Source: Rhizobium sp. CIAT894 (GTDB lineage Bacteria; Pseudomonadota; Alphaproteobacteria; Rhizobiales; Rhizobiaceae). From it: 64,000 nucleotides of DNA. The translations under genes and the position numbers were made by a program. Below the pieces are notes generated by a model. It did not search any database. It was given only the letters and a program-made list of their open reading frames with translations, and was not told the origin of the DNA. The stretch spans positions 1,057,001 through 1,121,000 of the forward strand of contig NZ_CP020947.1 of assembly GCF_000172795.2 (NCBI RefSeq), read 5' to 3'. Within the stretch, counting starts at the first letter, position 1. Each line of letters starts with the position of its first letter. Below are positions 42,320-64,000 of this stretch, in pieces.

Positions 42320-42348
42320 ATGGCTAGTTTCAACGCTGCACACTTCTC

Positions 42349-42433: not shown

Positions 42434-42489
42434 GAGATGTTTCCCCCGCCCATTCCTCATCTCCCCGCCATCAACAGCGAGCAACCATC

Positions 42490-44214: not shown

Positions 44215-44228
44215 CAACCCAGATAGTC

Positions 44229-44341: not shown

Positions 44342-44405
44342 GCTGCACGGCACAACCTTCAAGCAAATTCACCCACGCCAACCGCCCTGAACCGGAGATC
44401 CGCGC

Positions 44406-48316: not shown

Positions 48317-48621
48317 TTCCAACGATCTTCGCCGGCAATACCGGCAGGACACAGGGCGACATCGACGACAAGCGCAAGCAACTGGCCTACGCCATGCTGC
48401 AGCAGGGCATGGATACGAGCCCGGTGCAATCTCCATGGCAGGGAGCTGCGCGGTTGGCGCAGGCGCTGATGGGTGGTCTGGAAATTAGGCAGCAGAATGA
48501 GGCGCAGCGGGCAGGGACTGCCGAGGCCCCCACCGCGCCGACGAGCACGCCTTCCACTCCGTTGGCGAAGTTTCCCGGCTTCCTCTCATCGCTGTTTAGC
48601 GGCCAGCGCAATGTTCCATGA
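48313..48621 (+). CDS. Small hypothetical phage protein
   Basis: This 102-residue protein (atga overlap with the S74 gene) is rich in Gln, Thr, Ser and Pro after residue 60 (TAEAPTAPTSTPSTPLAKFP) and has a helical N-terminal part (DIDDKRKQLAYAMLQQGMDT). Position among ejection-type genes suggests a virion component. No family is recognised. Confidence 0.6.
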   Translation: MIPTIFAGNTGRTQGDIDDKRKQLAYAMLQQGMDTSPVQSPWQGAARLAQALMGGLEIRQQNEAQRAGTAEAPTAPTSTPSTPLAKFPGFLSSLFSGQRNVP

Positions 48622-48780
48622 ATAGCGCGCGGACTTGGCTGTCCAGAGTTAAGTCAGCGCTCTGAGGCCGGAGCCCTTGAGCCGCTTTCGCCCAACCTGC
48701 CCGTCCGCGGTTGAAGTAGACGTCAACAAGCGGCCGTCCGGAAAACCTTACATCGATCCCCAAATCCCCAGGAGCCTTTG

Positions 48781-50532
48781 ATGTCAAACTTTAAAGAAGC
48801 CCCGGCATTGAAGAAAATGCCCCGCCTTGGGGCCGCCCCCAATACGGGGCAATCCGGCGAGCAGACAGGACAGAAGCGCGAGCATAACCCGCTCGAGAAA
48901 CTGATCACTGGCGAGCTGCAGACGCCTGAAGAGCCTTCGATCGTTGGCGATGTGGCGAAGAGCTTCGGCAGTGGCATTGCCCGTGGTGGTGTCGAGCTCG
49001 TCATGTTCCCGGTGACCGCAAAACGTCTCTTGGAGCAGGGCACGGAATACGTCTACAACCAAGGTATCGATCTCGGTCGATCCGCCCTCGGCATGCCGCC
49101 GGTGAGTGACGAATGGAAAGCCAAAGTCCAGCAAGCTAAGGACATGAACTGGCTTGATTTGGATAAAGCCATCTATAGCGGCCAAGACTATGTTCGTGGG
49201 GCGATGGATGACAATCTATATGCGCCAAAGACACTCCCCGGAAAATATGCGGAAACGGTTGGCGAGTTCGTTCCGGGCGCGCTTACTGGTGGATCCAGCA
49301 ATTTGCTGACGAACATCGGCAAATTCGCCGTGATCCCTGGAGTTGCCAGCGAAGCTGCAGGGCAGTTCACCAAAGACACGAAATTGGAGCCATATGCTCG
49401 CCTCGTCGGCGCGCTTCTCGGCTCCGGTATTGTTCCAGCTGGAGAACGTTTAATTACGCCGCTACCGGTCTCCGCCGAGCGACAGATGATGAATCAGACG
49501 CTGAAAAACGAAGGGATTGATGCTGTGTCGGGGGGGCAGGCGTCCGGCAGTGTCGCCTTACGCAACGCCGAAGGCGACCTTGGCGGAGCAGCGGCGCAAG
49601 AATTGAACAGACAGCAGGGCGACCAATTCACCCGCGCGGCACTTGCTCGTGCAGGCATCGACGCCAACCGCGCCACGCCTGAGGTTATGGTTGAGGCACG
49701 GACGCGCATCGGCGATGGTTTGGATATGCTGGCCGTCAATCACAGCCTGATCCCGGATCAGCAACTCGTCGACGACATCACGACTGCTATGGGCGGCTAC
49801 AATAGTGTTACGGGGGAAGGGGCGCGTGCGCCGCTCCTCAAGAATTCGGTAGTTGATATTGCACGTCTGGCGAACGGTGAGACCTACAAAGCGGTCCGCT
49901 CTCGACTTGAAGACGCACAAGCGCGTAGCTGGAACGATCCGAATCTTTCGGAAGCATTGTCCAGCATACGCAACGCAATGGATGACGCCATGGAGCGATC
50001 GATCGCGGTGCAGAATCCGAATAGCTTGAGCGGGTGGCAGGAGGCAAAGCGTCAATACCGCAATTTTCTGGATCTGGAAAGGGCCGTCGCCGCTGCGGGC
50101 GAGGATGCTCGGAAAGGCATCATCTCTCCATCGCACTTGCAGAGCGCCACGAGACCGCAGAACCCTCGCGCGCTCGCCCAAGAGGATGGGGATTTCACCG
50201 CCCTGGTAAAGGCAGGGGAAGAAATCCTCAAACCGCATTCCAGTTCCGGTGGCTCACCGGTGCGCAGTTTTATCCAAAAAGGCATTACGGCTCTTGTTAG
50301 CGCCGGCGCGGGCGCTAAGTTGGCTGGCGGTCATGGAGCAATGCTCGGCGCCATAGCCGGCGGCGCTGTCCCCTATGCGGCCGGAAGAATTCTTTTATCT
50401 TCCCCGGTTCGCGCCTACCTCCAGAACCAACTGATCCAGCCCACACGTCTAACTAACCCGCGGGTCGCTGCGCTTGCTCAAGCCCTTCTTTCGCAGCAAG
50501 CCGCTCAAGGGCAGCAACAACCAAATCGGTAG
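48781..50532 (+). CDS. Internal virion/ejection-type protein
   Basis: This 583-residue protein lies where P22-like phages encode DNA-ejection proteins. Features are a disordered start (about 1-45), alpha-helical middle with IRNAMDDAMERSIAVQN and RQYRNFLDLERAVAAAGED, and a glycine/alanine-rich hydrophobic stretch near 500-535 (ALVSAGAGAKLAGGHGAMLG). That stretch could insert into the host membrane. Base composition is less GC-rich than the upstream morphogenesis genes, so this module was probably exchanged separately. The ATG at 48781 is chosen. Confidence 0.65.
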   Translation: MSNFKEAPALKKMPRLGAAPNTGQSGEQTGQKREHNPLEKLITGELQTPEEPSIVGDVAKSFGSGIARGGVELVMFPVTAKRLLEQGTEYVYNQGIDLGRSALGMPPVSDEWKAKVQQAKDMNWLDLDKAIYSGQDYVRGAMDDNLYAPKTLPGKYAETVGEFVPGALTGGSSNLLTNIGKFAVIPGVASEAAGQFTKDTKLEPYARLVGALLGSGIVPAGERLITPLPVSAERQMMNQTLKNEGIDAVSGGQASGSVALRNAEGDLGGAAAQELNRQQGDQFTRAALARAGIDANRATPEVMVEARTRIGDGLDMLAVNHSLIPDQQLVDDITTAMGGYNSVTGEGARAPLLKNSVVDIARLANGETYKAVRSRLEDAQARSWNDPNLSEALSSIRNAMDDAMERSIAVQNPNSLSGWQEAKRQYRNFLDLERAVAAAGEDARKGIISPSHLQSATRPQNPRALAQEDGDFTALVKAGEEILKPHSSSGGSPVRSFIQKGITALVSAGAGAKLAGGHGAMLGAIAGGAVPYAAGRILLSSPVRAYLQNQLIQPTRLTNPRVAALAQALLSQQAAQGQQQPNR

Positions 50533-50570
50533 CGTAACACGCCAGCAGTCGTTTCTTCCGGAGAAGACCA

Positions 50571-51929
50571 ATGCCCAGAAACCCATCAACCGGCGTCTAT
50601 TCCAAACCCGCCGGAACGACACCCTCCGTCGGCCAGGTCATCGACCCGGCGCCGTGGAACGCGCTGACCACCGATCTTGGCAACGAAATCACCAATTCGC
50701 TGCCGCGCGATGGCTCGGCGCCGATGATCGCACCGCTCAAGGCTGCCGGCGGAACCGTGTCCGCGCCGGGCGTCGGCTTCGCCTCGACCCCGCAGACCGG
50801 CCTCTATCTGAAGGGCGGCGGCCTGCTGGGCTTTGCCCAGAACGGCGTCGACGTCTCGTTCGATCACGCTTTGGTCTATGCGGCCAAGTCGGGCGATTAC
50901 ACAGCACTTGCATCCGACGACAACGCGGTTCACCGCTTTACCGCGGCCGCGACGCTCACCCTGAGCGCAGCGGCAACGCTCGGCGCAAACTGGCACTATT
51001 GCGTCATCGCCGATGGCGGGGATGTGACGATCGATCCGAACGGTTCGGAGACGATCGACGGTGCGGCTACGCTCGTCCTCAAGGACGGCTATAGCGTCAA
51101 CATCATATGCTCCGGTGCGGCTTTGTTCACCAACAAGCTCTTCGCCAGGATCCAGAGTAAAGCCGACAGCGCGGCGGTCGGCGATTTCGTCGTCGGGCTC
51201 ATCCTTTCCAACAACGGCGGCAGCCCGAACACCCATATCGATTTCACCGCCGGCTCTGCCAGATCAGGGTCGAGTTTCGTTTCCAGCGCGGCGTCGTTCA
51301 CCAAAAGGGTGACGGGAACATTTGCGGCCGGAACAGGCGCAGGCGGCCTCGACGCCGGCGCGGTGGCGGCAAATGCGACATATTTCGCCTATGCCTTGCG
51401 CAAGGATGCGGATCTGTCTTTCGACGTTGTTCTCTCGACATCGGCAACCATCGGCGGCGTCACCACGACGCTGCTCACCGGCTATACCATCGTGAAATGC
51501 ATCGGTGTGGTGCTGACCGATGGAAGTTCGAATATTCGGCCGTTTATCCTGTACCCACGTGACGAATATACCTTCGTGACGCCGGTCAAGGATGCTGTCA
51601 GTGCTGCTATCTCTACGAGTTCGGCGCTTCTGGCGCTGACAGTGCCAAATGGAGTGAAGGTCAAGACGAAGCTGCGTTTCGAACTCACGTCGTCGGCAAC
51701 CACTAACGCTGCACTGTTATCCGACCCTGCACAAGGTGTGCTTGTTGCCGGCGCCGGCAGTGACGGCGCCAACGTCGGCTCTATTCAGGTAGCGAGCGGT
51801 TTCGCAGTGGGATCGCAGGAGATTTGGACAAATACAAGTCGGCAAATTCGCATGGCAGTGGGCGGCTCTACCGGCAGCATCTGGATATGGACCGATGGCT
51901 TTCATTTCCTTTGCGGAAGGAGCTCTTGA
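50571..51929 (+). CDS. Tail fibre/spike protein
   Basis: This 452-residue, beta-rich protein has an N-terminal anchor-like region (VGQVIDPAPWNALTTDLGNE, ITNSLPRDGSAPMIAPLKAA) common in rhizobial phage fibres. A long Ala/Gly/Ser/Thr-rich shaft follows, then a C-terminal part ending in cysteine-containing FHFLCGRSS. A ggaga ribosome site precedes it. It should be the receptor-binding protein. The surface-glycan island follows it directly. Confidence 0.7.
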   Translation: MPRNPSTGVYSKPAGTTPSVGQVIDPAPWNALTTDLGNEITNSLPRDGSAPMIAPLKAAGGTVSAPGVGFASTPQTGLYLKGGGLLGFAQNGVDVSFDHALVYAAKSGDYTALASDDNAVHRFTAAATLTLSAAATLGANWHYCVIADGGDVTIDPNGSETIDGAATLVLKDGYSVNIICSGAALFTNKLFARIQSKADSAAVGDFVVGLILSNNGGSPNTHIDFTAGSARSGSSFVSSAASFTKRVTGTFAAGTGAGGLDAGAVAANATYFAYALRKDADLSFDVVLSTSATIGGVTTTLLTGYTIVKCIGVVLTDGSSNIRPFILYPRDEYTFVTPVKDAVSAAISTSSALLALTVPNGVKVKTKLRFELTSSATTNAALLSDPAQGVLVAGAGSDGANVGSIQVASGFAVGSQEIWTNTSRQIRMAVGGSTGSIWIWTDGFHFLCGRSS

Positions 51930-51979
51930 ATAAGCTCCACACCTGTGTTTGACATGCCGCCATCACGCCAGGAGTAGAA

Positions 51980-52540
51980 ATGGCACAGGTCGACAAGGCA
52001 TCCTATCGTAATCGAGGCGGCTTAATCCAGCGGCTCGTCACTGCTTATAAGCGCTTCCGCCACTTCACCGCGGCCGGCGAAAATCTCGTGGTGAAGCCCA
52101 GCGCTGAGTTTCGCATGGTCGGTCATGCCGTCCTTGAGGTCGGCGATAACGTCACGATCCAAGACCAGTCGTTCTTCCAACTTACAATGCCAGAGCCCAA
52201 AGTCTTCATCGGCAATAACACCGTAATCGGCCGCCGCAACATCATCACGGCGAAAAACCGGATATCGATCGGTAATGATGTCTTGATCGGCTCTGATGTC
52301 CAGATCATCGATCACGGCCACGGCATGAGGCGCGATACGCTGATCAGGCTTCAGAAGGCCGAAATCGGCTTTGTCCAAATTGGTGATGATGTCTGGATTG
52401 GGGCAGGCGCCAAAATATTGATGAACGTCACGATCGGAACCGGTGCCGTGATCGGAGCAAATTCCGTCGTCACGTCCGATATTCCCGATTATGCGATCGC
52501 GGTGGGTTCGCCAGCGAAGGTCATCAAATATCGCACTTAA
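51980..52540 (+). CDS. Hexapeptide-repeat acyltransferase
   Basis: This 186-residue protein is a left-handed beta-helix acyltransferase. Hexapeptide repeats run from about 50 to 170 (VLEVGDNVTIQDQSF, VFIGNNTVIGRRNIITAKNR, VQIGDDVWIGAGAKILMNVT). The active-site histidine region is QIIDHGHGMRRD and the usual end is VVTSDIPDYAIAVGSPAKVI. It probably moves acetyl or succinyl to a sugar. A caggag ribosome site precedes the ATG. As first gene after the tail fibre it opens the surface-modification island. Confidence 0.88.
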   Translation: MAQVDKASYRNRGGLIQRLVTAYKRFRHFTAAGENLVVKPSAEFRMVGHAVLEVGDNVTIQDQSFFQLTMPEPKVFIGNNTVIGRRNIITAKNRISIGNDVLIGSDVQIIDHGHGMRRDTLIRLQKAEIGFVQIGDDVWIGAGAKILMNVTIGTGAVIGANSVVTSDIPDYAIAVGSPAKVIKYRT

Positions 52541-52760
52541 CTTACATCCGGGGAGCGTAAATTGAGGTTGAATTTCCAACGCGCCGGTTCCGGTGCTGTC
52601 TCGAGCGCAGGAAAGCTTGCCTGGCGTCCATCGGTACGGTCGTCCTTCGTGGTTCTCCGGTTTGGCTCCTTTTTATGCCCGACCTTGTGGATGACGCTTG
52701 CCATTCGTTCAAGACTTGCAGTCAGCGCCAATTAGCCAATCTACCCCGAGCACGTCACAT

Positions 52761-54464
52761 TCACCGAGGCGATTGGCAATAGGGGCCATCAAGAGTTAGG
52801 AGATGCCTTGCCGCATAGTGTTCAGGATCTCTTATCTTGGTGATAAAAGCACTCACCATATAGGACCACTTGCTTTGCACGTCGCGTCCGCGATGAACGA
52901 TGTAGAGGCATCCTGGAACGTCAACCGCCGCATCTTCGACTTTCGACCAGGCTCCCAAGAACCGTTTGAAATTGCCAACAAATCCCGACCAGCCGCCATA
53001 CGCAGTCATGGAATCATAATCCAGGATCAAGGCGTCGTGTTTCCCGGTCGCGGCCTCGTGCAAGCCGGCATATTCTCCCAGTCCGGGCATCGTATCGAAT
53101 GCGTTCAGGCCAGATCTATCGAGGATCACGTAATTGCGGCTTTGCAGGGAAGGGGTATTCCTGATGGTATCGGCAAAAGCCTCCTGGCGCAGGTGGTCCA
53201 CATAAAAAATGGCATAAACAAACCACCAATTTACAATGAACACCGCTATCAAGCCGGCAAATGAGGCCACTTTGATCCGATGACGGATCCCGGGATTCTT
53301 CGCCGGTAAGACGGCACATGTGATCTTGAAAAGGCCCAGGGTCGAAAAGGCGGCGCCAAACGGAAGCAGCACTTGAAAGCGGGTCGCCATCCAAGGCTCA
53401 TAGGAGGGTTCCTTCCCAACCAGGACATAGGCCGAGGCTCCAAGACCCAACAGCACGACACCGATGCCTATCAATCCTTTTCCATTGCATTTGACTTCCG
53501 TGTCGCTCCCCGAAGAATTTGCTCCAATCAAGTAAACAAACAACAGGGCAGCCAAAAATATCGCCAGGGCAGCGGGTTTTCCAATGTATATTCCATCATA
53601 TGGGAGAATGTATAAAATTATGACTTTGATTTCCGAAAATATTGTGCCGAAATTGATGTCGATGACATTGTAGCTGGCGGCAAACATGCCGGTTTTCTTG
53701 AATAGGAAATGTTGTATTACGGTGTAAAGGAAGGGCAGTAGCAGGATTGCCACCGTTCTCTTTATAACAAATTTGAATTTGCTTAAATAGTTTCTATAAT
53801 GAATCGGATCTGTTGAAGTCTCGGCTTTCTTGTAAAGCAGGATGGCAGCGATGAAAAAGACCAATAGAAAGGGCGGTATCAGAGCGTTGAACTGAAAGGA
53901 AAACATAAATAAAGCGTAAGAAATATACTCTGTATATAAATTTTTATTTATCACTGAAATTACAAAAATATACAACGCAAAAACAAATAGCAGTAGAAAA
54001 AATAGCCCTGGATTATTTATAGCGGCAATCCCGGCAAAATTAACCGGCAAAGCTGCTGCGAGTAACGACAGGGCTGTTGCATCAGATTTTGAAAAATCGA
54101 AAGATTTTAAGATAAGATAGAATACATGAATGATGAGGTAACCGAGCGCAAAGGTCGAGAAAGCGTAAAACCACCAGCCGATCACTTGAACGGCATAATG
54201 ATAATATCCGAGAAGCGGAAATCCGGCCTGGGTAAAAACTGATACAAGCATTTCTTTGCTGGCGCCGGAAAGGCTCCAGTCATCCCAATATCGTGCACCC
54301 GATAAAAGAAAGATGGGAAGGTGGGCGCCCATATAAACGAGAAATATTTGCAATTCAGCTCTTTTGAAAAGTCCTTTCATGTCGGGCATCTTATGGCTTT
54401 CCTTGGACATGCGGGACATCCATTTTTGTACAAATGATCGGTATTGCGTTGTCGGCTCTGTCAT
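52761..54464 (-). CDS. Polytopic membrane protein, candidate GtrC-type glycosyltransferase
   Basis: This roughly 567-residue protein has about 10-12 transmembrane segments and a C-terminal soluble domain (about 440-567). The early loop LLSGARYWDDWSLSGASKEM contains acidic residues as in GT-C and Gtr serotype-converting transferases. It is markedly AT-rich compared with all flanking genes and runs opposite to them, so it has a separate origin. Start codon could be TTG at 54473 or ATG at 54464. It probably uses a lipid-linked sugar made and flipped by the neighbouring genes to modify surface polysaccharide; this is inference. Confidence 0.7.
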   Translation of the reverse strand: MTEPTTQYRSFVQKWMSRMSKESHKMPDMKGLFKRAELQIFLVYMGAHLPIFLLSGARYWDDWSLSGASKEMLVSVFTQAGFPLLGYYHYAVQVIGWWFYAFSTFALGYLIIHVFYLILKSFDFSKSDATALSLLAAALPVNFAGIAAINNPGLFFLLLFVFALYIFVISVINKNLYTEYISYALFMFSFQFNALIPPFLLVFFIAAILLYKKAETSTDPIHYRNYLSKFKFVIKRTVAILLLPFLYTVIQHFLFKKTGMFAASYNVIDINFGTIFSEIKVIILYILPYDGIYIGKPAALAIFLAALLFVYLIGANSSGSDTEVKCNGKGLIGIGVVLLGLGASAYVLVGKEPSYEPWMATRFQVLLPFGAAFSTLGLFKITCAVLPAKNPGIRHRIKVASFAGLIAVFIVNWWFVYAIFYVDHLRQEAFADTIRNTPSLQSRNYVILDRSGLNAFDTMPGLGEYAGLHEAATGKHDALILDYDSMTAYGGWSGFVGNFKRFLGAWSKVEDAAVDVPGCLYIVHRGRDVQSKWSYMVSAFITKIRDPEHYAARHLLTLDGPYCQSPR

Positions 54465-54611
54465 TGTTTTCAATCAATGTCAAAGTCGAATGAGCCATCG
54501 AAGATGACGGCTAATCCAATGAATGGGACCGATAGACAGGTGCAATAGCAACGAGCGTGATTCGGTTGCCGAACGTGCGCGGTTGATAAACGGTCCTCGG
54601 CTAAGTCACTG

Positions 54612-54667
54612 TTTGCAAACCGAGCGGTTCTCTTAATATAAATTTGCAAACCAATCAGTTCCTTTAA
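54612..54667. promoter_or_regulatory. Imperfect direct repeat in the divergent glycan-island promoter
   Basis: The 25-bp units tttgcaaaccgagcggttct.. and tttgcaaaccaatcagttcc.. have a 31-bp period (three helix turns), both ending ttaat. They lie between the divergent membrane-protein and aminotransferase genes in an otherwise gene-free 359-bp interval (54465-54823). They may be a pair of sites for one regulator. Confidence 0.5.
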
Positions 54668-54823
54668 TGGAAAAATGTATCGTCGCGAGCGTGGTGGCCT
54701 ATGACCGCAGTCCTGGCGGAATATCACTTGTCTTATGTGGATTATAATTTAATTAGGGGCGCAAAGCGGGGGCTTTTTTGCTATCGAGCCTTTGACGCTA
54801 TACGCTGTTTCGGATGTTCGTGA

Positions 54824-55951
54824 ATGAATCGTGTCTCTTTTGCATTGCCTCACCTGATCGGGAAGGAGGCGCTCTATCTCAATGAATGCCTTCTCTCGGG
54901 CCAGTGGGGCGGCGATGCAAGCTTCACAAAGCGATGCCATGCGCATCTGGATTCGATGTACGATGCCAGCACGCTTCTGTGCCACTCGTGTACCGCCGCC
55001 TTGGAAATGGCCGCAATGCTTCTCCGCCTCGGGCCGGGGGATGAGGTTATCATGCCGTCGTTCACCTTCGTGTCGACGGCCAATGCGGTGGTGCTGCGAG
55101 GAGCTGTGCCGGTATTTGTCGACATTCGCAGCGATACGCTCAATATCGATGAAACGCTGATCGAGGCCGCCATCACGCCGAGAACCAAGGCGATCTTCGT
55201 CGTTCACTACGCCGGAGTGGGTTGCGAAATGGAGCCTATTCTGGCTATCGCCTCGCGCCATGGACTGGCTGTGGTGGAGGATGCAGCCCAGGCTTACCTG
55301 GCGTCCTGGAAGGGGCGTGCTCTCGGAACATTCGGCCAGTTGGCCACCCTAAGCTTTCATCAGACCAAGAATATTGTCTCCGGTGAAGGTGGGGCTTTGA
55401 TCATCAATGATCCCGCTCTCGTCGAGCGAGCGCAAGTTATCCGGGAGAAGGGCACTAATCGCTCCCAGTTCATTCGCGGCGAAGTGGCCAAATACGATTG
55501 GCAGGATATGGGGTCCTCCTTCCTGCCATCTGATTTGGTGGCTGCCGTGCTCCTGGCTCAGCTTGAATACGCCGAAGATCTGACGCGGCAGCGCCTTTCG
55601 CTGTGGCATGCCTACGACGCAATATTCAAAGCGGCCGGCCATAACGGGTTGCGCCTTCCTGAAATTCCGGCCGACGCTGCACATAACGGACATATCTATC
55701 ATCTGCGCTTCGCCAATCTTGAACGTCGCGAAGAAACGCGCCGCAAATTGGTGGCAGAAGGCATAGGGGGCGTTACGCACTATGTTCCGCTGCATTCTTC
55801 GCCGGCCGGTGAACGATATGGACTCACGCCCTCGTCGATGGCGGTCACCAACCAGACGGCCGATACCCTGCTTCGGCTGCCCCTGCATGGCGGACTGACC
55901 GAGGCAGATATTGCCCGCGTCGCGAGCCGGGTTCTGGAATTTGCGCAATGA
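54824..55951 (+). CDS. DegT/DnrJ/EryC1 sugar aminotransferase (WecE/RffA-like)
   Basis: This 375-residue PLP enzyme has the sugar aminotransferase pattern. The start LPHLIGKEALYLNECLLSGQ is typical, followed by CHSCTAALEMAAMLL, Asp153 (VVEDAAQAY), and the Schiff-base lysine Lys182 in SFHQTKNIVSGEGGAL. Sequence matches dTDP-4-amino-4,6-dideoxygalactose transaminase closely in layout. It should convert a nucleotide keto-sugar to its amino form in the cytoplasm. It is first of a rightward run; the next start overlaps its stop by 4 bases. Confidence 0.9.
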   Translation: MNRVSFALPHLIGKEALYLNECLLSGQWGGDASFTKRCHAHLDSMYDASTLLCHSCTAALEMAAMLLRLGPGDEVIMPSFTFVSTANAVVLRGAVPVFVDIRSDTLNIDETLIEAAITPRTKAIFVVHYAGVGCEMEPILAIASRHGLAVVEDAAQAYLASWKGRALGTFGQLATLSFHQTKNIVSGEGGALIINDPALVERAQVIREKGTNRSQFIRGEVAKYDWQDMGSSFLPSDLVAAVLLAQLEYAEDLTRQRLSLWHAYDAIFKAAGHNGLRLPEIPADAAHNGHIYHLRFANLERREETRRKLVAEGIGGVTHYVPLHSSPAGERYGLTPSSMAVTNQTADTLLRLPLHGGLTEADIARVASRVLEFAQ

Positions 55952-56832
55952 AACGTTGTTTGGCGTGCGATGCCGTGTATGAGGCGGACATCTGGCGATG
56001 CCCCAAATGCGACACGATCGTGCCTCTGGAAGATGGTTTCCTGACCTTTGCGCCCGCGCTTGCCCATGACAATGACGGTTTTGCGAGCAGTTCACATGAA
56101 CAGCTTCAGGCCCTGCAGCATGGCAGCTTCTGGTTTCGGGCCAGAAACCGCCTGATCACAGATCTTGTGCGACGGTATTTTGTCAAAAGCCAACGGGCGC
56201 TGGAAGTGGGATGCGGCACGGGCTTCGTCCTCACGGCTTTGCGCGAGGCTCTCCCGCAGGCGGTCCTGTGCGGCAGCGAGATCTATCTGAACGGCTTGCC
56301 TTACGCGCGCGAGCGGTTGAAAGGGGCGGGCCAGCTTTTCCAGATGGACGCGCGCGACCTCCCTTTCCATGGGGAATTCGACTTGCTTTGTGCGTTCGAT
56401 GTGCTGGAGCATATCGACGAGGACGAGCTGGTCTTGCGGCAAATGGCCCAGGCCCTGCGGGCGGATGGTGGAGTGTTGCTGGCTGTTCCGCAACACCCCG
56501 GCCTTTGGAGCCGCAACGATGATCTGGCATTCCACAAACGCCGTTATCGGCGCGGCGAACTGGAGCAGAAATGTGCGGCCGCTGGTCTCGATGTGATTTT
56601 CTCGACATCATTTGTGACGAGCCTGTTGCCGGTTTTCGCGCTCCAGCGCGCCACGCGCAGCCGCTCCAAGGATCATGATCCGGCGCGGGAGCTGCAACTG
56701 CCTCGGTTCGTGGACAGGTCGTTCGAGATGTTGCTGGATGGCGAACGACAGCTTATCCGCCTCGGGGTGCGCTTGCCGGCCGGCGGATCGCGTTTCGTGG
56801 TGGCAAGAAAGACTGCAGGTGCGCGGTCATGA
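55948..56832 (+). CDS. SAM methyltransferase with N-terminal zinc ribbon
   Basis: This 294-residue protein has a four-cysteine zinc ribbon at the start (Cys4, 7, 18, 21: CLACDAVYEADIWRCPKC). A class I methyltransferase domain follows with motif I LEVGCGTGFVLTAL (about 85-98), acidic strand 2 GSEIYLNG, and FDVLEHIDEDEL. C-terminal basic segments (RATRSRSKDHDPARE) may contact a carrier. Zinc-ribbon methyltransferases of this type methylate nucleotide-linked or lipid-linked sugars. Overlaps on both sides show translational coupling. Confidence 0.85.
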   Translation: MKRCLACDAVYEADIWRCPKCDTIVPLEDGFLTFAPALAHDNDGFASSSHEQLQALQHGSFWFRARNRLITDLVRRYFVKSQRALEVGCGTGFVLTALREALPQAVLCGSEIYLNGLPYARERLKGAGQLFQMDARDLPFHGEFDLLCAFDVLEHIDEDELVLRQMAQALRADGGVLLAVPQHPGLWSRNDDLAFHKRRYRRGELEQKCAAAGLDVIFSTSFVTSLLPVFALQRATRSRSKDHDPARELQLPRFVDRSFEMLLDGERQLIRLGVRLPAGGSRFVVARKTAGARS

Positions 56833-57539
56833 AACGTGTAGCGATCATACAGTCAGCTTATGTTCCCTGGCGCGGCTTCTTCGACCTTATCGGTCGCTGC
56901 GATGAATATATCATTTATGATCAGGTCGCCTACAGCAAAGGCCACTGGCACAATCGGAACAAGATCAAGACTGCAACGGGCACGCGCTGGATCACCATTC
57001 CCGTGGTGACTAGCGGCAGGTTGGGGCAGCCCATCGAGGACGTTGAAATCAAGGGCGATTGGGCCGAGGGGCATTTTGCCCAGATCCGTCAGGCCTATAA
57101 GGCCGCACCCGCCGCCAAGCTCGTTCTTCCTGTTCTCGAAGCGCTCTACAGCCAGGCCGGGAAATTGAAATTTCTGACTGAAGTCAATGAGTTGTTCCTC
57201 AGGCATTTCGTCGAAGCGTTAAAGCTGGATGTTCTGATCACACGCGACAGAATATATGCGCCGCACTCGACGCGAAGTGAGCGCGTTCTTGCCACTTGCC
57301 TTGCGGCCGGCGCGACACATTATTTGTCGGGTCCGTCCGCGAAAGTGTATTTGGACGAAACAATGTTTCGGGATGCAGGGATCACGGTGGAGTGGATGAG
57401 TTATGGCCCTTATCCGGAATACCCCCAGCTTCACGGTGTTTTCGACGGGCAAGTCAGCATCATAGATCCTATTCTGAATGGGCACGGGGCTGGATCTGTG
57501 ACCGCGCCCGGCCCGCAACAGGGAGCAGCAGCATGGTAA
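56829..57539 (+). CDS. WbqC-like family protein
   Basis: This 236-residue protein has the WbqC family start AIIQSAYVPWRGFFDLIGRC (5-24). It continues IYDQVAYSKGHWHNRNKIKT with conserved His/Asn/Arg, TRWITIPV, and the late GATHYLSGPSAKVYLDETMF. WbqC-like proteins occur in O-antigen clusters and have been linked to amino-sugar or glycine/N-acyl modification. The biochemical role is not settled. The start overlaps the methyltransferase stop (atga). Confidence 0.88.
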   Translation: MKRVAIIQSAYVPWRGFFDLIGRCDEYIIYDQVAYSKGHWHNRNKIKTATGTRWITIPVVTSGRLGQPIEDVEIKGDWAEGHFAQIRQAYKAAPAAKLVLPVLEALYSQAGKLKFLTEVNELFLRHFVEALKLDVLITRDRIYAPHSTRSERVLATCLAAGATHYLSGPSAKVYLDETMFRDAGITVEWMSYGPYPEYPQLHGVFDGQVSIIDPILNGHGAGSVTAPGPQQGAAAW

Positions 57540-57621
57540 GCCGTTTGACCTTCATGCGCAAAGCCGAAGATGCTCGGCCGTCTGGGCACGCAACTGAGCA
57601 GGCTGGCTTCGCATATATCGG

Positions 57622-58572
57622 ATGCAAACTGTGAATTACTCGATTGTCGTGCCCATCTATGGCGATGGCGGTTTGGCCCGAGACCTCTGTGTGGAAGTTC
57701 AGCGGGTCATGCGTGCATTTACAGGTCGCGAGGATCTTGGGGCGATACTGGAGTTGATTTTCGTTAATGACGGTAGCCGGGACAACAGCCTTGAGCTGTT
57801 GCTTCCGTTGCAGGCCGAGTTCGATTTCGTCAGGATCATCGATCTGTCAAGAAATTTTGGCCAGCATATTGCCATCGCTTGCGGGTTTCGCGAGGCCGCG
57901 GGCGATGTCGTCATCCGAATGAATGTCGACATGCAGGATCATCCGGACCAGATTCCAGCATTGCTCGAGCATATGGCGGCGACGAAGGCGGACATCGTGA
58001 TCGGACAGTACGAGCAACGCGAAAGCCCGCTGATCAATCGCATGACCGCTCGGCTCTATTATAGTTTTTTTCGAATTATGACCGGTCTCGATTCGCCTCA
58101 GAACACGTCTCCCCTGCGGGTGCTGAGCCGCCGATACGTCAATGCTTACAATTGCCTGACAGAAAAGACGCGGTTCCCCCAAGGTCTTGATCAATGGTTA
58201 GGCTTCTCGCCACGTTACACTCAAATTGCCCACCGGCCGCGACTGAAGGGCAGGTCTTCCTATAATTTCTGGTCACGGCTGCGGCTGGGGCTTGATGGGC
58301 TGCTGTATTTTTCCGAGCGTCCGCTGATCATAATGATGTCGCTGGGGCTGTTCCTCAGCGCATTTGGTACAGTGATGGGCTTGTTGCTTGTGGTGATGCG
58401 CCTGTTTTTGACCAACATCGAACCCGGCTTCACGGCTCTTGCTGCAATCGGCCTATTTGCTTTTGGTGTCCAGCTGATTTGTTTGGGAGTTGTCGGCTTT
58501 TACGTCGGAAAGATTTTCAAGGAAGTTCAAAATCGTCCGCTCTACATCATCAAGGACAGATTTTGGAGCTAG
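57622..58572 (+). CDS. GtrB/ArnC-type polyprenyl-phosphate glycosyltransferase (GT2)
   Basis: This 316-residue protein has a GT-A domain with SIVVPIYGD, FVNDGSRDNSLEL (48-60), ASP-rich VIRMNVDMQDHPDQIP (98-113) and LSRNFGQHIAIACG. Two C-terminal transmembrane segments (about 236-262 and 270-296) follow. Enzymes of this type load a sugar on undecaprenyl phosphate on the inner face of the membrane. It is the central step of the serotype-conversion-like pathway here. Confidence 0.92.
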   Translation: MQTVNYSIVVPIYGDGGLARDLCVEVQRVMRAFTGREDLGAILELIFVNDGSRDNSLELLLPLQAEFDFVRIIDLSRNFGQHIAIACGFREAAGDVVIRMNVDMQDHPDQIPALLEHMAATKADIVIGQYEQRESPLINRMTARLYYSFFRIMTGLDSPQNTSPLRVLSRRYVNAYNCLTEKTRFPQGLDQWLGFSPRYTQIAHRPRLKGRSSYNFWSRLRLGLDGLLYFSERPLIIMMSLGLFLSAFGTVMGLLLVVMRLFLTNIEPGFTALAAIGLFAFGVQLICLGVVGFYVGKIFKEVQNRPLYIIKDRFWS

Positions 58573-58609
58573 AGATATCAACTGCTTAGCCACAAATCAG
58601 AGATAGACC

Positions 58610-59374
58610 ATGTCGCACGAATCCACCACCATCAGCTATTCACCTTCCACCAGCATCGACGCTAGGCAGAAGATATTCGAATTGCAGAAGACCTATCCTG
58701 CAACGCCGGAGGAAAAAGAGCGTTCGCCCGGTCTTTTCCTGCGTGGTTCATTGCTGGCACGTATTCTGGCGATCCGGGATATTTATGTGCAGATCGTCGA
58801 TATTCCGGGCTCCATTTTCGATATTGGCACATGGCGCGGCCAGACTGCCGTGCTATGCGAGAACCTCCGGGCCATTTACGAACCTCTGCATCTCAATCGT
58901 CGAATTGCCTGTTTCGACACGTTCGAGGGCTATGTCGGCTTCTCCGACAAGGATGCTCCATCCGAGCTGCATCGCGACGGCACCTATGGCGTCGGAGGCG
59001 AGGAATATGCTGCCTATCTCGACGAATTGCTGAAGCTGCATGAACAATCCAACGCCATGGGAAACAATTTCGGCAAGCATAAGGTGATTAAGGGGGACTG
59101 CTGCGAGACTATCCCGAAATATTTCTTTGACAATCCCCATGAATTTGTGGCGCTCGCCTTCTTCGATGTGAATTCGTATCAACCGTCGCTCGAAGCCTTC
59201 GAGGCTGTTTGGCAGCGGATGGTACCGGGCGGCATTGCTGCTTTTTGGCAGTTGACCAGAAATGTCATTCCGGCTGAAGGACGCGTTTATGCAGAGAACA
59301 TCGTCGGCAGATACGGCCATAGTCTGCACCGATGCCCTACCTATCCTGGGCTATGTTATCTGAAAAAGATCTAA
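58610..59374 (+). CDS. TylF/MycF-type O-methyltransferase
   Basis: This 254-residue protein has the macrocin-O-methyltransferase pattern. It has PGSIFDIGTWRGQTAVLCEN (SAM site), RRIACFDTFEGYVG with the metal/substrate loop, VIKGDCCETIPKYF, and the acidic ALAFFDVNSYQPSLEAFEAV. TylF relatives methylate sugar hydroxyls and need Mg2+. In this island it should methylate the amino-sugar or its precursor. A 37-bp gap separates it from the glycosyltransferase gene. Confidence 0.87.
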   Translation: MSHESTTISYSPSTSIDARQKIFELQKTYPATPEEKERSPGLFLRGSLLARILAIRDIYVQIVDIPGSIFDIGTWRGQTAVLCENLRAIYEPLHLNRRIACFDTFEGYVGFSDKDAPSELHRDGTYGVGGEEYAAYLDELLKLHEQSNAMGNNFGKHKVIKGDCCETIPKYFFDNPHEFVALAFFDVNSYQPSLEAFEAVWQRMVPGGIAAFWQLTRNVIPAEGRVYAENIVGRYGHSLHRCPTYPGLCYLKKI

Positions 59375-59399
59375 CTCGCATTTTTCGCTTGGAGTGCAC

Positions 59400-60851
59400 A
59401 TGAAACGGGTGGTGCTGGGAAACGGCGTTGTAGGACTGTCGATCGCTTTCGGCTTGCTGCGGCGCGCAAACGCGTCGGATGAAATCGTGGTGGTCGGCCC
59501 CCCGCAACGTCCAGGGTCCGCGACGCTTGCAGCGGCGGCCATGCTCAATTCCTTCGCTGAAATTGAGCATGGCGGTCTCGATACCGATATCGATCTCTTT
59601 CGATTTGAGATGAGTCATCGGGCAACGCGCCTCTGGCCCGCTTTTGAGCAGTCACTTATCGACGCAGCGGGGGACACACTTCCCTCTGGTTGCTCTGCCT
59701 GCCAGGGATGCTCGGGCGGCGGATGCTTTAAGTCAGGCACTTACGTCGTCAACAACAATGCCGCCGACGATCTCGATGACCTTAATTTCGACGCCATTCT
59801 CACTGCGCTGATCGATTTCAACGAGCAACACGACGTTGTTTCGCCGAAAGACATTCCCCACTACAAGCCGCACCAGCGTTACCGCGCGAGCCGCGCCCTC
59901 TTCATTCATAACGAGGGCTGGTTTAATCCGCGCATCATGCTGGAGAAGATGGAGGGTGCGCTACGCCGAGCGCCGAATGTGCGCTTCATCGAAGAAGGTG
60001 TCGATCGCTTTAACCATGCGGATGGGGCGATCACTTATGTCACTCTGATGTCCGGCAAACAGCTCGAAGGCGACCAGTTTGTCCTGGCTACCGGCGCAAC
60101 GGCGTGGGACGTCCTCGATCGCAGCGGGCTGCGGGACGTAATCCAGCGCATCTTCTATGGCATCGGCACATCGATAGAAATCCGCAGCCCCGATGACGCA
60201 CTCTCCCATGTCATCCGGACCCCCAACCGCGGCCTGGCCTGTGGCCTGTATGCTGCCCCCTATTTCCAAGGGCCAAACGAACCGAACGATCACGTGCTCG
60301 TCGGGGCCAGTAACTTTATCGCGCCGCAGCTCCATGCGCATGGCCGCCTGACGAGCATAGAAGGCCTGCTTAATGGAGCCATAAAGCAAATTAACAGCAA
60401 TTATTACCGGGCCGACCTGATCCGTGTGAACGTCGGTGCGCGACCTAACAGCCAGGACACCTACCCGCTGCTCGGCAAGACGTCGATCGATAATCTTTTC
60501 GCTGCCACGGGAACAAAGCGAGACGGATTCCATCTCGCACCTTTGATCTCCGAGGTGATGGCCAAGATGTTGCACGGTGAAACCGTTGACGAGCGTTACG
60601 CACTTTTTGCACCTAGTCGTAAGCCGCTGCGCACGATGACGCGGGATGAAGCTGTCTCGAAAGCCGTCCGTCACCAGATGAGCGCTGCCTACCAGCACGG
60701 ATTTTCGCCTGCGACGAGCCGCATGCCGGATCAAATTGCGGCAAACATGCGCGACGCCGTGGAACGTTTGCACGATCAGGTCGGCGCCAAGGACTGGGGC
60801 ATACCGCCTGAAATGCTTGACATGTATCGCTACGGACATGCCATTCCATGA
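59400..60851 (+). CDS. FAD-dependent oxidoreductase (DAO-type) with four-cysteine cluster
   Basis: This 483-residue protein has an N-terminal FAD-binding motif (VVLGNGVVGLSIAFGLLRRA, about 4-23) and a DAO-like body, and a C-terminal FAD loop (LFAATGTKRDGFHLAPLISE). Between them lies an unusual insertion with cysteines at 98, 101, 104 and 109 (CSACQGCSGGGC), spaced as for an iron-sulphur cluster or zinc. The ATG at 59400 has a ggag ribosome site. It may oxidise an amine or hydroxyl on the sugar; the substrate is unknown. Confidence 0.78.
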   Translation: MKRVVLGNGVVGLSIAFGLLRRANASDEIVVVGPPQRPGSATLAAAAMLNSFAEIEHGGLDTDIDLFRFEMSHRATRLWPAFEQSLIDAAGDTLPSGCSACQGCSGGGCFKSGTYVVNNNAADDLDDLNFDAILTALIDFNEQHDVVSPKDIPHYKPHQRYRASRALFIHNEGWFNPRIMLEKMEGALRRAPNVRFIEEGVDRFNHADGAITYVTLMSGKQLEGDQFVLATGATAWDVLDRSGLRDVIQRIFYGIGTSIEIRSPDDALSHVIRTPNRGLACGLYAAPYFQGPNEPNDHVLVGASNFIAPQLHAHGRLTSIEGLLNGAIKQINSNYYRADLIRVNVGARPNSQDTYPLLGKTSIDNLFAATGTKRDGFHLAPLISEVMAKMLHGETVDERYALFAPSRKPLRTMTRDEAVSKAVRHQMSAAYQHGFSPATSRMPDQIAANMRDAVERLHDQVGAKDWGIPPEMLDMYRYGHAIP

Positions 60852-60915
60852 TCAATGAGGTCTTGAGAGCATGGCAGTCTGTCCCTGATACTATTTGCGA
60901 CCGGAGCGCAACGCC

Positions 60916-61278
60916 ATGAAGTTGCTTCTGGCGATCCTGCCGACTGTCATGCTTACGCTGTACAGTCAATTTATCACCAAATGGCGCGTCGGAGTGCTGT
61001 CGGAGCAGGTTGGCTCTGCCGCCGTACTGGCAAGGGTCATTCGCTATCTGAGTGATCCATTTATTCTTTCATCCTATGCTATGACACTTATCGCGTCGAT
61101 CGCGTGGTTCGCCGTGCTCGAACGCTATGAACTGTCATTGGCCTATCCGATCTTCATCGGTGTGATGTTTGCTTCTGTGACGGTTGGAGGAATGCTCGTC
61201 TTTGGTGAGCCGGTAACGGCCATCCGGCTTTTTGCTATTGTGTTGATCTTCCTAGGAATTATCGCTGGCACGCGTTAA
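60916..61278 (+). CDS. SMR/ArnE-like four-helix membrane protein (candidate lipid-linked sugar flippase)
   Basis: This 120-residue protein has four hydrophobic segments (about 3-18, 42-65, 72-88 and 95-117). It carries the EmrE/ArnE-type helix LERYELSLAYPIFIGVMFAS with Glu and Tyr in the usual places and ends GEPVTAIRLFAIVLIFLGII. ArnE/ArnF and GtrA proteins of this size move undecaprenyl-linked sugars across the inner membrane. Being last gene of the island with a GtrB-type enzyme three genes before supports a flippase role. The ATG at 60916 is chosen over a TTG upstream. Confidence 0.82.
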   Translation: MKLLLAILPTVMLTLYSQFITKWRVGVLSEQVGSAAVLARVIRYLSDPFILSSYAMTLIASIAWFAVLERYELSLAYPIFIGVMFASVTVGGMLVFGEPVTAIRLFAIVLIFLGIIAGTR

Positions 61279-61587
61279 GTGTGTGATCCAAGGCGACCTG
61301 CTATGGCCTGTTGAGTGCACTGGCTGGCCTGCTGCCGTCTTCGCAGACACCGAGATAAGGTGTTGGACGAAACACAGAGTTGGAACGCAGAGAAGCAGGA
61401 AACGGCCTGCTCTTCGCCTAGACCCAAGACCATCTCGTTGAACGTGATGTCCTTTTCTCTTCGGTCATGTCGAAGATAAAATCCTCATAAGCATCCAGAC
61501 TGGAGCCGCGGCGCTACCCCAGCGTCTTCCTCCGTGAGCCGCGCGCACCGCGACACCCAACATTTATCACAACCCGGAGCCCACCCC
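61279..61587. other. Intergenic interval between glycan island and lysis genes
   Basis: These 309 bp hold no gene with a ribosome site. This is the junction where the phage late operon resumes after the island. I see no terminal repeats or site-specific recombination sequence by eye. Confidence 0.5.
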
Positions 61588-61842
61588 ATGCTCGTCCATA
61601 ACTGGCGCGCCGTGATCAAGCACGCCTGGTCCGTCCGCCTCATGGCGCTGGCGCTGCTCTGCATCATGCTTGAGCCCGTCATCAATTTCGTCGCGGCAAC
61701 CTGGGTGTCGCGCAATCTCTACATCCAGCTCGCCATGTCGGCGGCAACGGGACTTTTCGCCGTTGCGGCGATCGTCGCCCGCATCTTCGTTCAGCAGAAA
61801 ATCTCAGGAGAACTGAATGGCAAACCGCCTGCAGAAGGGTAG
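61588..61842 (+). CDS. Holin-like membrane protein
   Basis: This 84-residue protein has two transmembrane helices (VRLMALALLCIMLEPVINFV, about 16-35, and LAMSAATGLFAVAAIVARIF, about 48-67) and a short charged tail. It overlaps the lysozyme gene by 26 bp. Small size, helices and position before the endolysin point to a class II-type holin that forms the lesion in the inner membrane. Confidence 0.78.
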   Translation: MLVHNWRAVIKHAWSVRLMALALLCIMLEPVINFVAATWVSRNLYIQLAMSAATGLFAVAAIVARIFVQQKISGELNGKPPAEG

Positions 61843-62281
61843 TGCCGCAGCTGCCATGGCTGTGGCGCTGGTCGGGTCGTTCGAGGGATTGCGGCAGAAT
61901 GCCTATCCCGATCCGGCAACAAAGGGGCAGCCGTGGACGATCTGCTATGGCAGCACCAATGGCGTCAAGCCTGGCGACCACAAGACGGTGGAGCAGTGCA
62001 AGGCGCTGCTGGCGCTGGAGCTCGACACCTATGCGCGCGGCGTCGAAAGCTGCGTGCGCGTGGCCCTGCCGGATGCCCGCTTCGTGGCGCTGACCTCCTT
62101 CGCCTATAATGTCGGCGTCAAGGCGGCCTGCGGCTCGAGTGCGGTCAGGCTCATCAATCAGGGCAGGACGGCCGAGGGCTGCGAGGCGCTGTTGAAGTGG
62201 AACCGTGCGGCCGGCATCGTCTTTCCGGGCCTCACCCGGCGCCGGCAGAAAGAGCGGCAATTCTGCCTGGAGGGCATCTGA
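61817..62281 (+). CDS. Phage lysozyme/endolysin (GH24)
   Basis: This 154-residue protein has the T4/R21 lysozyme pattern. Catalytic Glu23 is in GSFEGLRQNAYPD with Asp32 at the E-8-D spacing, and the threonine is in PWTICYGSTNG. The helical lobe includes ALTSFAYNVGVKAACGSSAV, and the C-terminal region is FPGLTRRRQKERQFCLEG. The N terminus is weakly hydrophobic (about 9-20), so a signal-anchor-release form is possible. It degrades peptidoglycan for release. Confidence 0.92.
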   Translation: MANRLQKGSAAAAMAVALVGSFEGLRQNAYPDPATKGQPWTICYGSTNGVKPGDHKTVEQCKALLALELDTYARGVESCVRVALPDARFVALTSFAYNVGVKAACGSSAVRLINQGRTAEGCEALLKWNRAAGIVFPGLTRRRQKERQFCLEGI

Positions 62282-62643
62282 TGTTCTCCGTTCTCGACAC
62301 GCTCAAGATGGGCGCCGGCATCGCCGCCGGGCTGGTGCTCTATCACCTCTATGCCGTTTCGATCGGCTATCCCTCGGCGGCCCGGCAGGCCCGCGCCGGC
62401 TATATCATGCTGGCCGAGAAGGCTGCGGCCGAGGCGAGGGCGGCCGAGATGGAGCGCCAGCGCAATGCGGCCTCGCTCGCCACCGAAGAGAACCGCAAGC
62501 GCCTTCTCGCCGCGGAGGCGGCTGAGCAGGCGGCCAGAGACACACTCGAAATCGAGATCCAATCCTATGAGCTTCAGCTTTCGGAAAAGAACCGCGCTTG
62601 CGCTGTCACTGCTGCTGATCGCCAGTGGCTGCTTCGCCACTGA
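62281..62643 (+). CDS. Rz-like inner-membrane spanin
   Basis: This 120-residue protein has an N-terminal transmembrane segment (MGAGIAAGLVLYHLYAVSIG, about 10-29) and a long coiled-coil periplasmic part (about 45-100, AEKAAAEARAAEMERQRNAA). It starts in the lysozyme stop and overlaps the Rz1-like gene by 77 bp in another frame. It should span the periplasm with the lipoprotein partner to fuse inner and outer membranes at lysis. Confidence 0.88.
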   Translation: MFSVLDTLKMGAGIAAGLVLYHLYAVSIGYPSAARQARAGYIMLAEKAAAEARAAEMERQRNAASLATEENRKRLLAAEAAEQAARDTLEIEIQSYELQLSEKNRACAVTAADRQWLLRH

Positions 62644-62875
62644 GCGGCTGAACAGGGCCTCAGCGATGAAGGGGCAAACGGCAGCCGGCATCACGCTGCC
62701 GCCCTTGCCCGACGATCTGCGCCGGCAGGAAGCGCATGCGCCCGTGCTCGAAGGCGAGCCCGTCATCGCGGTTCTCGCCCGCGAGCGCCAGGCGCTCGAC
62801 CGCGCCAATGCCCGCCAGGGGCGCAGCGTGCAATTTTATGACGACCTCACCAGCAGATATGGAGCGCGCCGATGA
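62567..62875 (+). CDS. Rz1-like outer-membrane lipoprotein spanin (embedded start)
   Basis: This 102-residue protein has a lipoprotein signal (RKRTALALSLLLIASGC, lipobox ending Cys22) and a Pro/Arg-containing short mature part. It begins inside the Rz-like gene in the +2 frame, the usual nested arrangement. It is longer than lambda Rz1, with an Arg/Glu-rich helical C terminus (VIAVLARERQALDRANARQG). A frame search that ignores overlap would miss or misstart it. Confidence 0.85.
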   Translation: MSFSFRKRTALALSLLLIASGCFATERLNRASAMKGQTAAGITLPPLPDDLRRQEAHAPVLEGEPVIAVLARERQALDRANARQGRSVQFYDDLTSRYGARR

Positions 62876-64000
62876 CGCTTGCACTCGGTATGGGACTCGG
62901 TCCTTCATTCGCGAACGCTATGGCCGATGGCCATCCGGATTGGGTGCCGGACCCGAACCGCTATATGCCCTTCTCGATGGGATGGCGCTGGCCGGCCGGC
63001 TTCGTGATGGCGGCCGGCACCGGGCTCGGCGCGGTCGGCGGAATTCTCGCCATGGCGAATGGTCCGTGGGACATCACGTCGCCGAGGTTCCACTTTTCAG
63101 GTTGGGCATGCACGGAGGGCAGCAACGCTCCGCAGGAGATTGTCTATCCGACGGCGGCGTTCGATATCGGCTGCGACATCTCGACCGACCGCATCAACTG
63201 GGTTCCCTTCGACTTCGCCGGCAGCGCAAGCTTCAATATGCCCGCGCAGAACCAGGGAACATGGGCTACGGCGAATATCACGCTTCCGAAGGACTCGATC
63301 TTTTATCTGCGTCCGAAGCTGCTGATCGCCGAAGGGCAGTCCTATATCGGCAACTACCGCATCCAGAAACATCGCAATGAGAAGATGTGGGGAGCGGCGG
63401 ACTGGACAGCCCTGCAGGCTTTGATGGATGGGGACGCACCGAACACCGCCGCGCTCGACCAGTTCTACAATACGGTCGGCAACGCCAGCAACAGCCAGCT
63501 CCTGCTCTACGGCCCCGATCTGATGGTGGGGCTCGGTTGGGATGGCCGGCCGATCCCGATCATTCTCAATGACAGCCTTGTGGAGCGCCAGGAAATATCC
63601 GCTTCAGCGGACGCTCGCAGGAACCTCGGCCTATGGCGTCGATGGCTGGATGAGCCCGATCCGAAGCAGGGCAGGCTCGTTGGCCTGATCATGGGCGTGC
63701 CCGGGTCAAAGGCCGCGAACGAGCTGGCGGGCTCCGGCGCCACGATCGCGACAAGGCGATGGGCAATCATCGACGAGGTGAAAACGCTCAATGGCGGCAA
63801 GAACTGCTGGACCGGGATCGCTGCCATTGAGGATGGGTCGAACGACAACAGCGCGACCCTGTCGACCTGGCAGAACGCTATCTACTCCTTGACCTCCACG
63901 CGATTTCTCGGCCGCTATCCCGGCGCCAGGATGCTCGCAGTTCCGATCCCGGGGCGCACCAGCGTTGGCACGAGTCTCAACTTCCAGACCGTCGCAGGGC
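62872..64000 (+). CDS. Large phage protein after the spanins, incomplete at the window edge
   Basis: The ATG at 62872 overlaps the Rz1-like stop (atga). The frame stays open for 376 codons to the end of the window. The start (MTLALGMGLGPSFANAMADG) is followed by MPFSMGWRWPAGFVMAAGTG and a beta-rich region. Middle segments are DSIFYLRPKLLIAEGQSYIG and LIMGVPGSKAANELAGSGAT. No named domain is recognised. Position after lysis genes and composition suggest a virion surface or depolymerase-type protein. Because it has no stop in the window, it would not appear in lists of closed frames. Confidence 0.75.
   Translation, partial: MTLALGMGLGPSFANAMADGHPDWVPDPNRYMPFSMGWRWPAGFVMAAGTGLGAVGGILAMANGPWDITSPRFHFSGWACTEGSNAPQEIVYPTAAFDIGCDISTDRINWVPFDFAGSASFNMPAQNQGTWATANITLPKDSIFYLRPKLLIAEGQSYIGNYRIQKHRNEKMWGAADWTALQALMDGDAPNTAALDQFYNTVGNASNSQLLLYGPDLMVGLGWDGRPIPIILNDSLVERQEISASADARRNLGLWRRWLDEPDPKQGRLVGLIMGVPGSKAANELAGSGATIATRRWAIIDEVKTLNGGKNCWTGIAAIEDGSNDNSATLSTWQNAIYSLTSTRFLGRYPGARMLAVPIPGRTSVGTSLNFQTVAG

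Follow-up and report, generated by a model that had tools for sequence, protein, structure and literature searches.

Background

Among the described systems that come closest to the locus considered here are the gtrABC loci (P22, the S. flexneri phages and the Salmonella gtr operons; PMC3688519), which are carried by phages and combine a GtrB-family GT2 glycosyltransferase, a small membrane protein and a unique polytopic protein. Here we describe a 64,000-nucleotide stretch of the Rhizobium sp. CIAT894 contig NZ_CP020947.1 (positions 1,057,001 to 1,121,000, forward strand; hereafter the window), in which a phage-derived element carries a set of eight genes, cassette A, between a fibre-position gene and a holin gene. 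Cassette A is probably a swappable, gtr-like surface-glycan cassette that would make a methylated 4-amino-6-deoxy sugar whose amine bears a glycine-derived group.

Other described systems resemble parts of this locus. Pathways of the WecE/ArnC/ArnE type follow the same logic of an aminotransferase, a polyprenyl-phosphate transferase and an SMR-type flippase. In the viosamine island for flagellin glycosylation in Pseudomonas syringae (PMC3927599), an aminotransferase makes a 4-amino-6-deoxy sugar that is then N-acylated and methylated; acyl-carrier-protein enzymes supply the N-acyl group there, and the transferase VioT has 1,173 residues. The third comparison is Orf1 of BD-12 biosynthesis, a DAO-family enzyme with a C-terminal extension. 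Orf1 has two sites (PMC10156733): glycine is oxidised at the first, and at the other an amino-sugar that bears a glycyl group receives, via Cys281, a glycine-derived group. The glycine of this substrate is added beforehand by another enzyme, which is Fem-like in BD-12, and E426 is essential for product formation, the E426Q mutant still oxidising glycine but giving no product.

Extent and inheritance of cassette A

Cassette A (52736..61412) was delimited by comparison with cassette-free loci (L163, L164, L166, L172 and L173). Similarity to them stops at 52735/6 on the left, and the right end would lie about 134 bp past the flippase stop by analogy with L034, L036 and L187 (133-137 bp), divergence having blurred this end in the window itself. 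The insertion point is defined, between resident genes and ahead of the holin. In L187 and L034, a 10-bp imperfect direct repeat stands at both cassette ends (AGCTAATTTA/AGCTAATYTA); it was not seen on the left in L036, and repeats this short can be due to chance.

The distribution of the genes was followed in 36 fetched genomic loci plus the window, 37 in total, anchored on structural genes with anchor matches above about 280 bits (weaker anchor matches and the short contig G161 were left out), and a gene was counted as present at 40% identity over 40% of its length. Cassette A is all-or-none in this sample, with eight of eight genes in five loci; in two of these an acyltransferase-3 gene accompanies it. 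Twelve further loci carry small sets of acyltransferase-3 or methyltransferase genes, and none of the tested sets was found in 14, which include two distant elements and one short contig. The gene set also occurs on six IMG/VR contigs among the best 80 of 114 viral contigs, although 43 of these 80 do not show fibre and lysozyme together. The viral-contig and genome counts are not independent because the two sets overlap in part (L004 and L034 give near-identical dN/dS and dS values, that is, ratios of nonsynonymous to synonymous substitution and synonymous divergence). The cassette genes are under purifying selection, with dN/dS values of 0.05-0.30.

The preliminary description had placed nine genes between fibre and holin in a single island, and all nine open reading frames (ORFs) do lie there, at or near the positions it gave. 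A single nine-gene island was, nevertheless, rejected, as the first of these genes, encoding a hexapeptide-repeat acyltransferase (WbbJ-like; 51980..52540, plus strand; Pfam Hexapep, 6.9e-16), is resident in the phage family and lies outside the cassette. It is present in four of the five cassette-A loci and in 12 of the 32 others, and its dS (1.08-1.67) exceeds that of the cassette genes (0.18-0.57), so the common ancestor of the cassette copies is younger than that of the neighbouring acyltransferase.

A second set, cassette B, has eight of eight genes in 4/37 loci and five of eight in 2/37, and it was never found together with cassette A, either in the 37 loci or among the best 80 viral contigs, where it occurs in three. 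It lies upstream of the fibre gene, as an operon in the opposite orientation. All six loci encode three methyltransferases, two of them FkbM, together with an N-terminally extended GT2 and a flippase-like protein (LPG_synthase_TM). Four of the six also have one more methyltransferase, a protein resembling fatty-acid desaturases and, in divergent orientation, a polytopic gene whose product is 24% identical to that of the window (E 8e-18). Full versions are seen in L161, L168, L172 and L173, and short ones in L157, L158, L093 and L148. The same plan with different chemistry in A and B supports one class of function. As judged from these sequence comparisons, cassette A is probably a swappable unit in a long-resident phage remnant, with different cassettes or none there in other strains. 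Two more polytopic proteins were seen in the fibre-to-holin interval of relatives (L174:8904-10889 and L107:16531-17730), with no GT2 neighbours in view.

Genes of the cassette

The leftmost gene of cassette A, on the minus strand (52761..54473), encodes a polytopic membrane protein with seven hydrophobic segments in a simple scan and a SARYWDDW motif, a candidate GtrC-like (GT-C) transferase. Its ORF probably starts at 54419 or 54389, since the first 20-28 codons are not conserved. It is followed by a divergent intergenic region (54474..54823) that contains a conserved TTGTCTTATGTGGATTATAATTT block (in a nine-row alignment whose rows are partly non-independent) and is a possible promoter.

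The other seven genes are on the plus strand. The first encodes a WecE-like DegT aminotransferase (54824..55951), predicted to act at C4 of a dTDP-4-keto-6-deoxyhexose; it scores above both curated cut-offs (515.6 bits against 375 for NCBIfam NF008687 and 478.9 against 434.85 for TIGR02379) and matches PDB 6blg at 7.6e-119. The lysine named in the preliminary description was confirmed on the 6blg alignment, where it is residue 182 (FHQTK182). Next come a class I methyltransferase (55948..56832; Pfam Methyltransf_11, 1.1e-14) with an N-terminal, zinc-ribbon-like CxxC pair read from the sequence, and a WbqC family protein (56829..57539; Pfam WbqC, 3.4e-60, 204 bits against a gathering score of 21.3), a proposed N-glycyl (aminoacyl) transferase with one match in phage records, at 24%. 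The polyprenyl-phosphate glycosyltransferase of GtrB/ArnC/PgfS type (57622..58572) matches phrog_841 at 2.4e-66 over residues 7-313 and the PgfS model at 188 bits, under the cut-off of 500; in phage records it has 133 matches, the best at 36.5% identity and none at 60%. The TylF-like sugar O-methyltransferase (58610..59374) is closest to CalS11, a TDP-rhamnose 3'-O-methyltransferase (PDB 4gf5/3tos, 3.5e-34), and precedes the flavoenzyme treated below.

The last gene encodes a four-segment protein of the SMR/DMT superfamily, a proposed flippase (60916..61278). Its ORF was called from 60895 and probably starts at 60916, because the first seven codons hold a stop in three of the eight other prophage copies translated. 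PF00893 matches eight of eight family members at E<=1, the window's own copy reaching 18.5 bits, below the cut-off of 23.7, and the profile of the protein matches SMR structures at 2e-4. The superfamily agrees with the SMR/ArnE-like flippase first proposed; the ArnE model scores under its cut-off.

The flavoenzyme

The FAD enzyme (59394..60851, plus strand) has a C-terminal extension, and its closest solved relatives are N-formimidoyl fortimicin A synthase and Orf1 (7xyl/7xxp; 1e-48 over 432 aa). It had been described as a DAO oxidoreductase, and the family is right; a generic glycine or sarcosine oxidase was rejected as the best name, glycine oxidase matching at 3.6e-13. In an alignment of the window enzyme with 14 homologues, all 15 sequences keep seven residues of Orf1: Cys281, A56, N299 and the glycine-site residues A54, M57, R342 and R368. 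The cysteine, Cys283 in the window enzyme, is absent from all six ordinary DAO-family proteins that cover the position, one by a gap (eight were tried). We file the enzyme as a relative of Orf1, and not as an N-formimidoyl synthase, because E426 is Gln in 15/15.

The phage-type enzyme was found in five of 148 genomes of the genus, and a sixth match (G187) is of Orf1 type, at 33%. Among 398 genomes of the phylum (E<=1e-20), this genome alone gave a match for the DAO flavoenzyme; 50,697 phage records gave none at E<=1e-5, and plasmid relatives, among the matches listed (8 of 18), have 28-31% identity. The Orf1-type gene of G187, another Rhizobium (L212), keeps C281 and apparently E426, with no other cassette gene in the 20 kb fetched.

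Related genes outside the phage

A scan of the genome collection gave 14 loci, of which two are this prophage (R. chutanense and R. phaseoli) and 12 are distant, at 55-72%, with none of this phage's genes found. In all 12 distant loci, a TylF-like gene lies immediately upstream of the flavoenzyme gene; DegT is within the locus in 11 and WbqC in eight, three of the four loci that lack it being short or beginning at a contig edge. A quartet of WecE-like aminotransferase, WbqC, TylF-like methyltransferase and Orf1-like flavoenzyme thus recurs, in gene orders other than that of cassette A. An ordinary locus with the same order and no phage genes would have spoken against a phage cassette; the sugar genes are indeed together in the 12 distant loci, but among the loci examined this prophage family alone had the complete eight-gene order.

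Six of the 12 distant loci have FliD and FliS clusters nearby and five a flagellin cluster, the assignment resting on Pfam for one locus (L193: flagellin, FliD and FliS) and on clustering for the others. These loci resemble the viosamine island; L193 and three other distant loci encode a transferase of about 1,170-1,200 aa. Both the GT2 and the SMR protein are present in L192 and L202, one of the two in L197, L198 and L199, and weak matches at 27-28% in L200; where they are present, the layout approaches that of the phage cassette. In L202, from a metagenome-assembled genome of Mesorhizobium, polytopic proteins adjoin the GT2 and the SMR protein.

The carrier element

The phage-derived element that carries the cassette (33700..64000, plus strand, its right edge past the window end) begins at about 33.7 kb, where the similarity of the flanks to other species breaks, and ends at about 66.4-66.8 kb in window positions, as seen in L032. 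It has late genes only, from terminase through lysozyme and esterase. Small and large terminase, portal, major head and tail genes occupy 34.9-45.1 kb, the terminase starting at 34877, and only about 1.2 kb lies ahead of the small terminase. Five PF00589 matches, four above the cut-off, were found in the genome in a search for tyrosine integrases (serine integrases were not searched), the nearest at 0.276 Mb, about 0.8 Mb from the prophage at 1.09-1.12 Mb. The carrier has one chromosomal site common to many species: the left flank is the same in five of five genomes compared, and the right-hand flank sequence follows the element in 15 of the 36 fetched loci, 10 of which extend to the LacI-type regulator itself, while several others stop short of the flank and more distant copies are placed elsewhere. 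A tRNA-Pro at 8130 was considered as the attachment site and rejected, given the element start near 33.7 kb. The single site, the short pre-terminase region and the absence of a nearby tyrosine integrase lead us to class the carrier as a phage remnant with a fixed site, or as a domesticated element, and not as a temperate phage that is evidently active. The distantly related Bradyrhizobium phage ppBjS10J-1, most of whose proteins are listed as hypothetical, has, unlike the carrier, an early/regulatory region before the small terminase, and it has no annotated glycan cassette.

Purifying selection acts on the late genes as well: six of them have dN/dS values of 0.02-0.24 across five species (major head, 0.02-0.06). 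The portal ORF has stops in four of five relatives; its family match begins at residue 89, and the N-terminal stretch was probably over-called. At the same chromosomal site, L211 (genome G005) keeps the acyltransferase and the holin-lysozyme region, with the head-tail genes absent. An IS110-family transposase ORF (43243-44214, by Pfam) within the structural region looks like an insertion in this strain, the five aligned relatives skipping about 43.1-44.2/44.4 kb, and direct repeats of a few hundred bases directly before the small terminase (33753-34535) are common to relatives.

Next to the cassette, the fibre-position structural gene (50571..51929, plus strand) is allelic, with roughly 45-92% identity between loci, some of it partial; it has no Pfam match, and the name "fibre" is that of the preliminary description. 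To the right are the holin (61534..61842, plus strand; phrog_1356, 1e-4; DUF7940), the phage lysozyme (61817..62281, plus strand; PF00959, 2.2e-39) and, from 62872, an SGNH/lysophospholipase-like esterase (L032:1872-3467) with 34-97% identity between loci. The G+C content per kb is 45-59% at 52-62 kb, against 57-67% in the preceding phage genes. A known anti-phage defence set was also considered and rejected: PADLOC gave one match for nine proteins, of the methyltransferase domain of the gene at 55948 to mads_2 (4.4e-9).

Proposed function and alternatives

In the pathway that we infer, in its reactions, their order and its target alike, host RmlA and RmlB would supply dTDP-4-keto-6-deoxyglucose (a search for RmlB gave two in the host genome above the curated cut-off), and DegT would add an amino group at C4. 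WbqC could then attach glycine, or a similar acyl group, to this amine, and the Orf1-like flavoenzyme could oxidise a second glycine and load the free amine with a group of formimidoyl type derived from glycine. The TylF-like and zinc-ribbon methyltransferases would methylate the sugar, the GtrB-like enzyme would transfer it onto undecaprenyl phosphate, and the SMR protein would flip the lipid-linked sugar. The periplasmic step, in which the sugar is passed on to a polysaccharide of the surface (O-antigen being the likeliest), would fall to the polytopic protein. The glycine link is drawn from two neighbouring genes, WbqC and the Orf1-like enzyme, and a glycyl role of WbqC would fit an Orf1-like partner in need of a glycyl amine. 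The preliminary description had likewise read the GtrB-like GT2 and SMR-superfamily protein, joined to amination, methylations and a flavoenzyme, as the makings of a new lipid-linked amino-sugar, and this is still the best reading.

Several observations weigh against parts of this proposal. The proposed glycyltransferase role of WbqC goes back to a suggestion in the Pfam note on WbnG. The protein has no solved relative in PDB, profile search included (0 matches at E<=5), and WbqC was found neither in the 14 kb of L202 nor in the 20 kb around the G187 gene. The polytopic protein has no match in Pfam, NCBIfam, PHROG or PDB (0 in the PDB profile search at E<=5), and its structure model failed, at a pLDDT (predicted local distance difference test) of 34.3. 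A scan for consensus promoters and terminators gave about as many as shuffled sequences, with no excess. The chemistry of the flavoenzyme may differ from that of Orf1 because, besides the E426 change, H284 is Tyr and Y294 is Leu or Val in 15/15, and the acceptor-site residues E312/E313 are not kept, the local alignment being uncertain there. Finally, the cassette is flanked by phage structural and lysis genes; the fixed site and the lack of a nearby tyrosine integrase weaken the lysogenic conversion first suggested, in the version in which a mobile phage brings it about. Literature searches on WbqC and glycine, wbnG, N-acetylglycyl and lysogenic conversion by Rhizobium prophages gave nothing on point among the entries listed, nor did one on formimidoyl with glycans, which was too loose to show absence; the accessible part of PMC10117803 holds nothing on WbqC or glycine.

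It is possible, though we put it forward tentatively, that the phage locus applies aminoglycoside-type N-formimidoyl(glycyl) chemistry to surface sugars, giving an O-methylated 4-(N-formimidoylglycyl)amino-4,6-dideoxyhexose, and that the domesticated fixed-site element, with one of several interchangeable cassettes beside its fibre gene, may spare its own cells through the altered surface. The same cassette and delivery would also serve if the flavoenzyme were no more than an oxidase of the amine/glycine type that acts on the acyl-amine of the sugar and transfers no formimidoyl group. Membership in the DAO family and the invariant Gln at E426, which in Orf1 leaves oxidation without product, are consistent with such an oxidase; conservation of the transfer-adduct cysteine in every homologue and its absence from ordinary relatives, together with the much closer match to Orf1 than to glycine oxidase, make us doubt it.

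The target and the present activity of the locus can be questioned as well. The flagellar genes near half of the distant loci would point, in place of O-antigen, to some other polymer of the surface or to a glycoprotein, for example flagellin. Four of those loci have a cytoplasmic-type transferase of about 1,190 aa that is missing from the phage cassette, where GT2, flippase-like and polytopic proteins are present instead, and we consider this target unlikely here. That the locus is decaying cargo of a dead prophage, with no present function, would agree with the lack of a nearby tyrosine integrase and with the remnant in G005, yet the low dN/dS of both cassette and late genes and the all-or-none presence of the cassette make this highly improbable.

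Comparison with known systems

Cassette A belongs to an already known kind of phage surface modification and calls for no new category. It would widen the gtr idea, in which glucose is moved, to a phage-derived locus with a sugar pathway of its own that runs through several steps. The flavoenzyme, whose family has until now been known from the making of antibiotics, would also connect an unusual FAD/cysteine reaction of aminoglycosides with surface glycans and, in other bacteria, probably with flagellin. Whole glycan cassettes vary between species at a fixed chromosomal phage site in Rhizobium, and this variation probably contributes to the diversity of surfaces among symbionts.

We file the cassette as gtr-like, and not as gtrABC, because no GtrA was found among the Pfam, NCBIfam and PHROG matches and the small membrane protein falls in the SMR/DMT superfamily instead; in addition, five extra enzymes would make its own sugar, and its polytopic gene is divergently oriented. 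In contrast to the WecE/ArnC/ArnE-type pathways, it scores under the cut-offs of the ArnC, ArnE and PgfS models. The VioT transferase of the viosamine island is similar in size to the large transferase of the four distant quartet loci, whereas cassette A would use a membrane GT2 route and, in place of acyl-carrier-protein enzymes, WbqC and an Orf1-like enzyme. The latter shares with Orf1 its DAO family, C-terminal extension, glycine-site residues and Cys281, and differs from it at E426 (Gln), H284 (Tyr), Y294 (Leu/Val) and the acceptor site, as well as in its setting, which is a surface-glycan locus here and an antibiotic one in Orf1.

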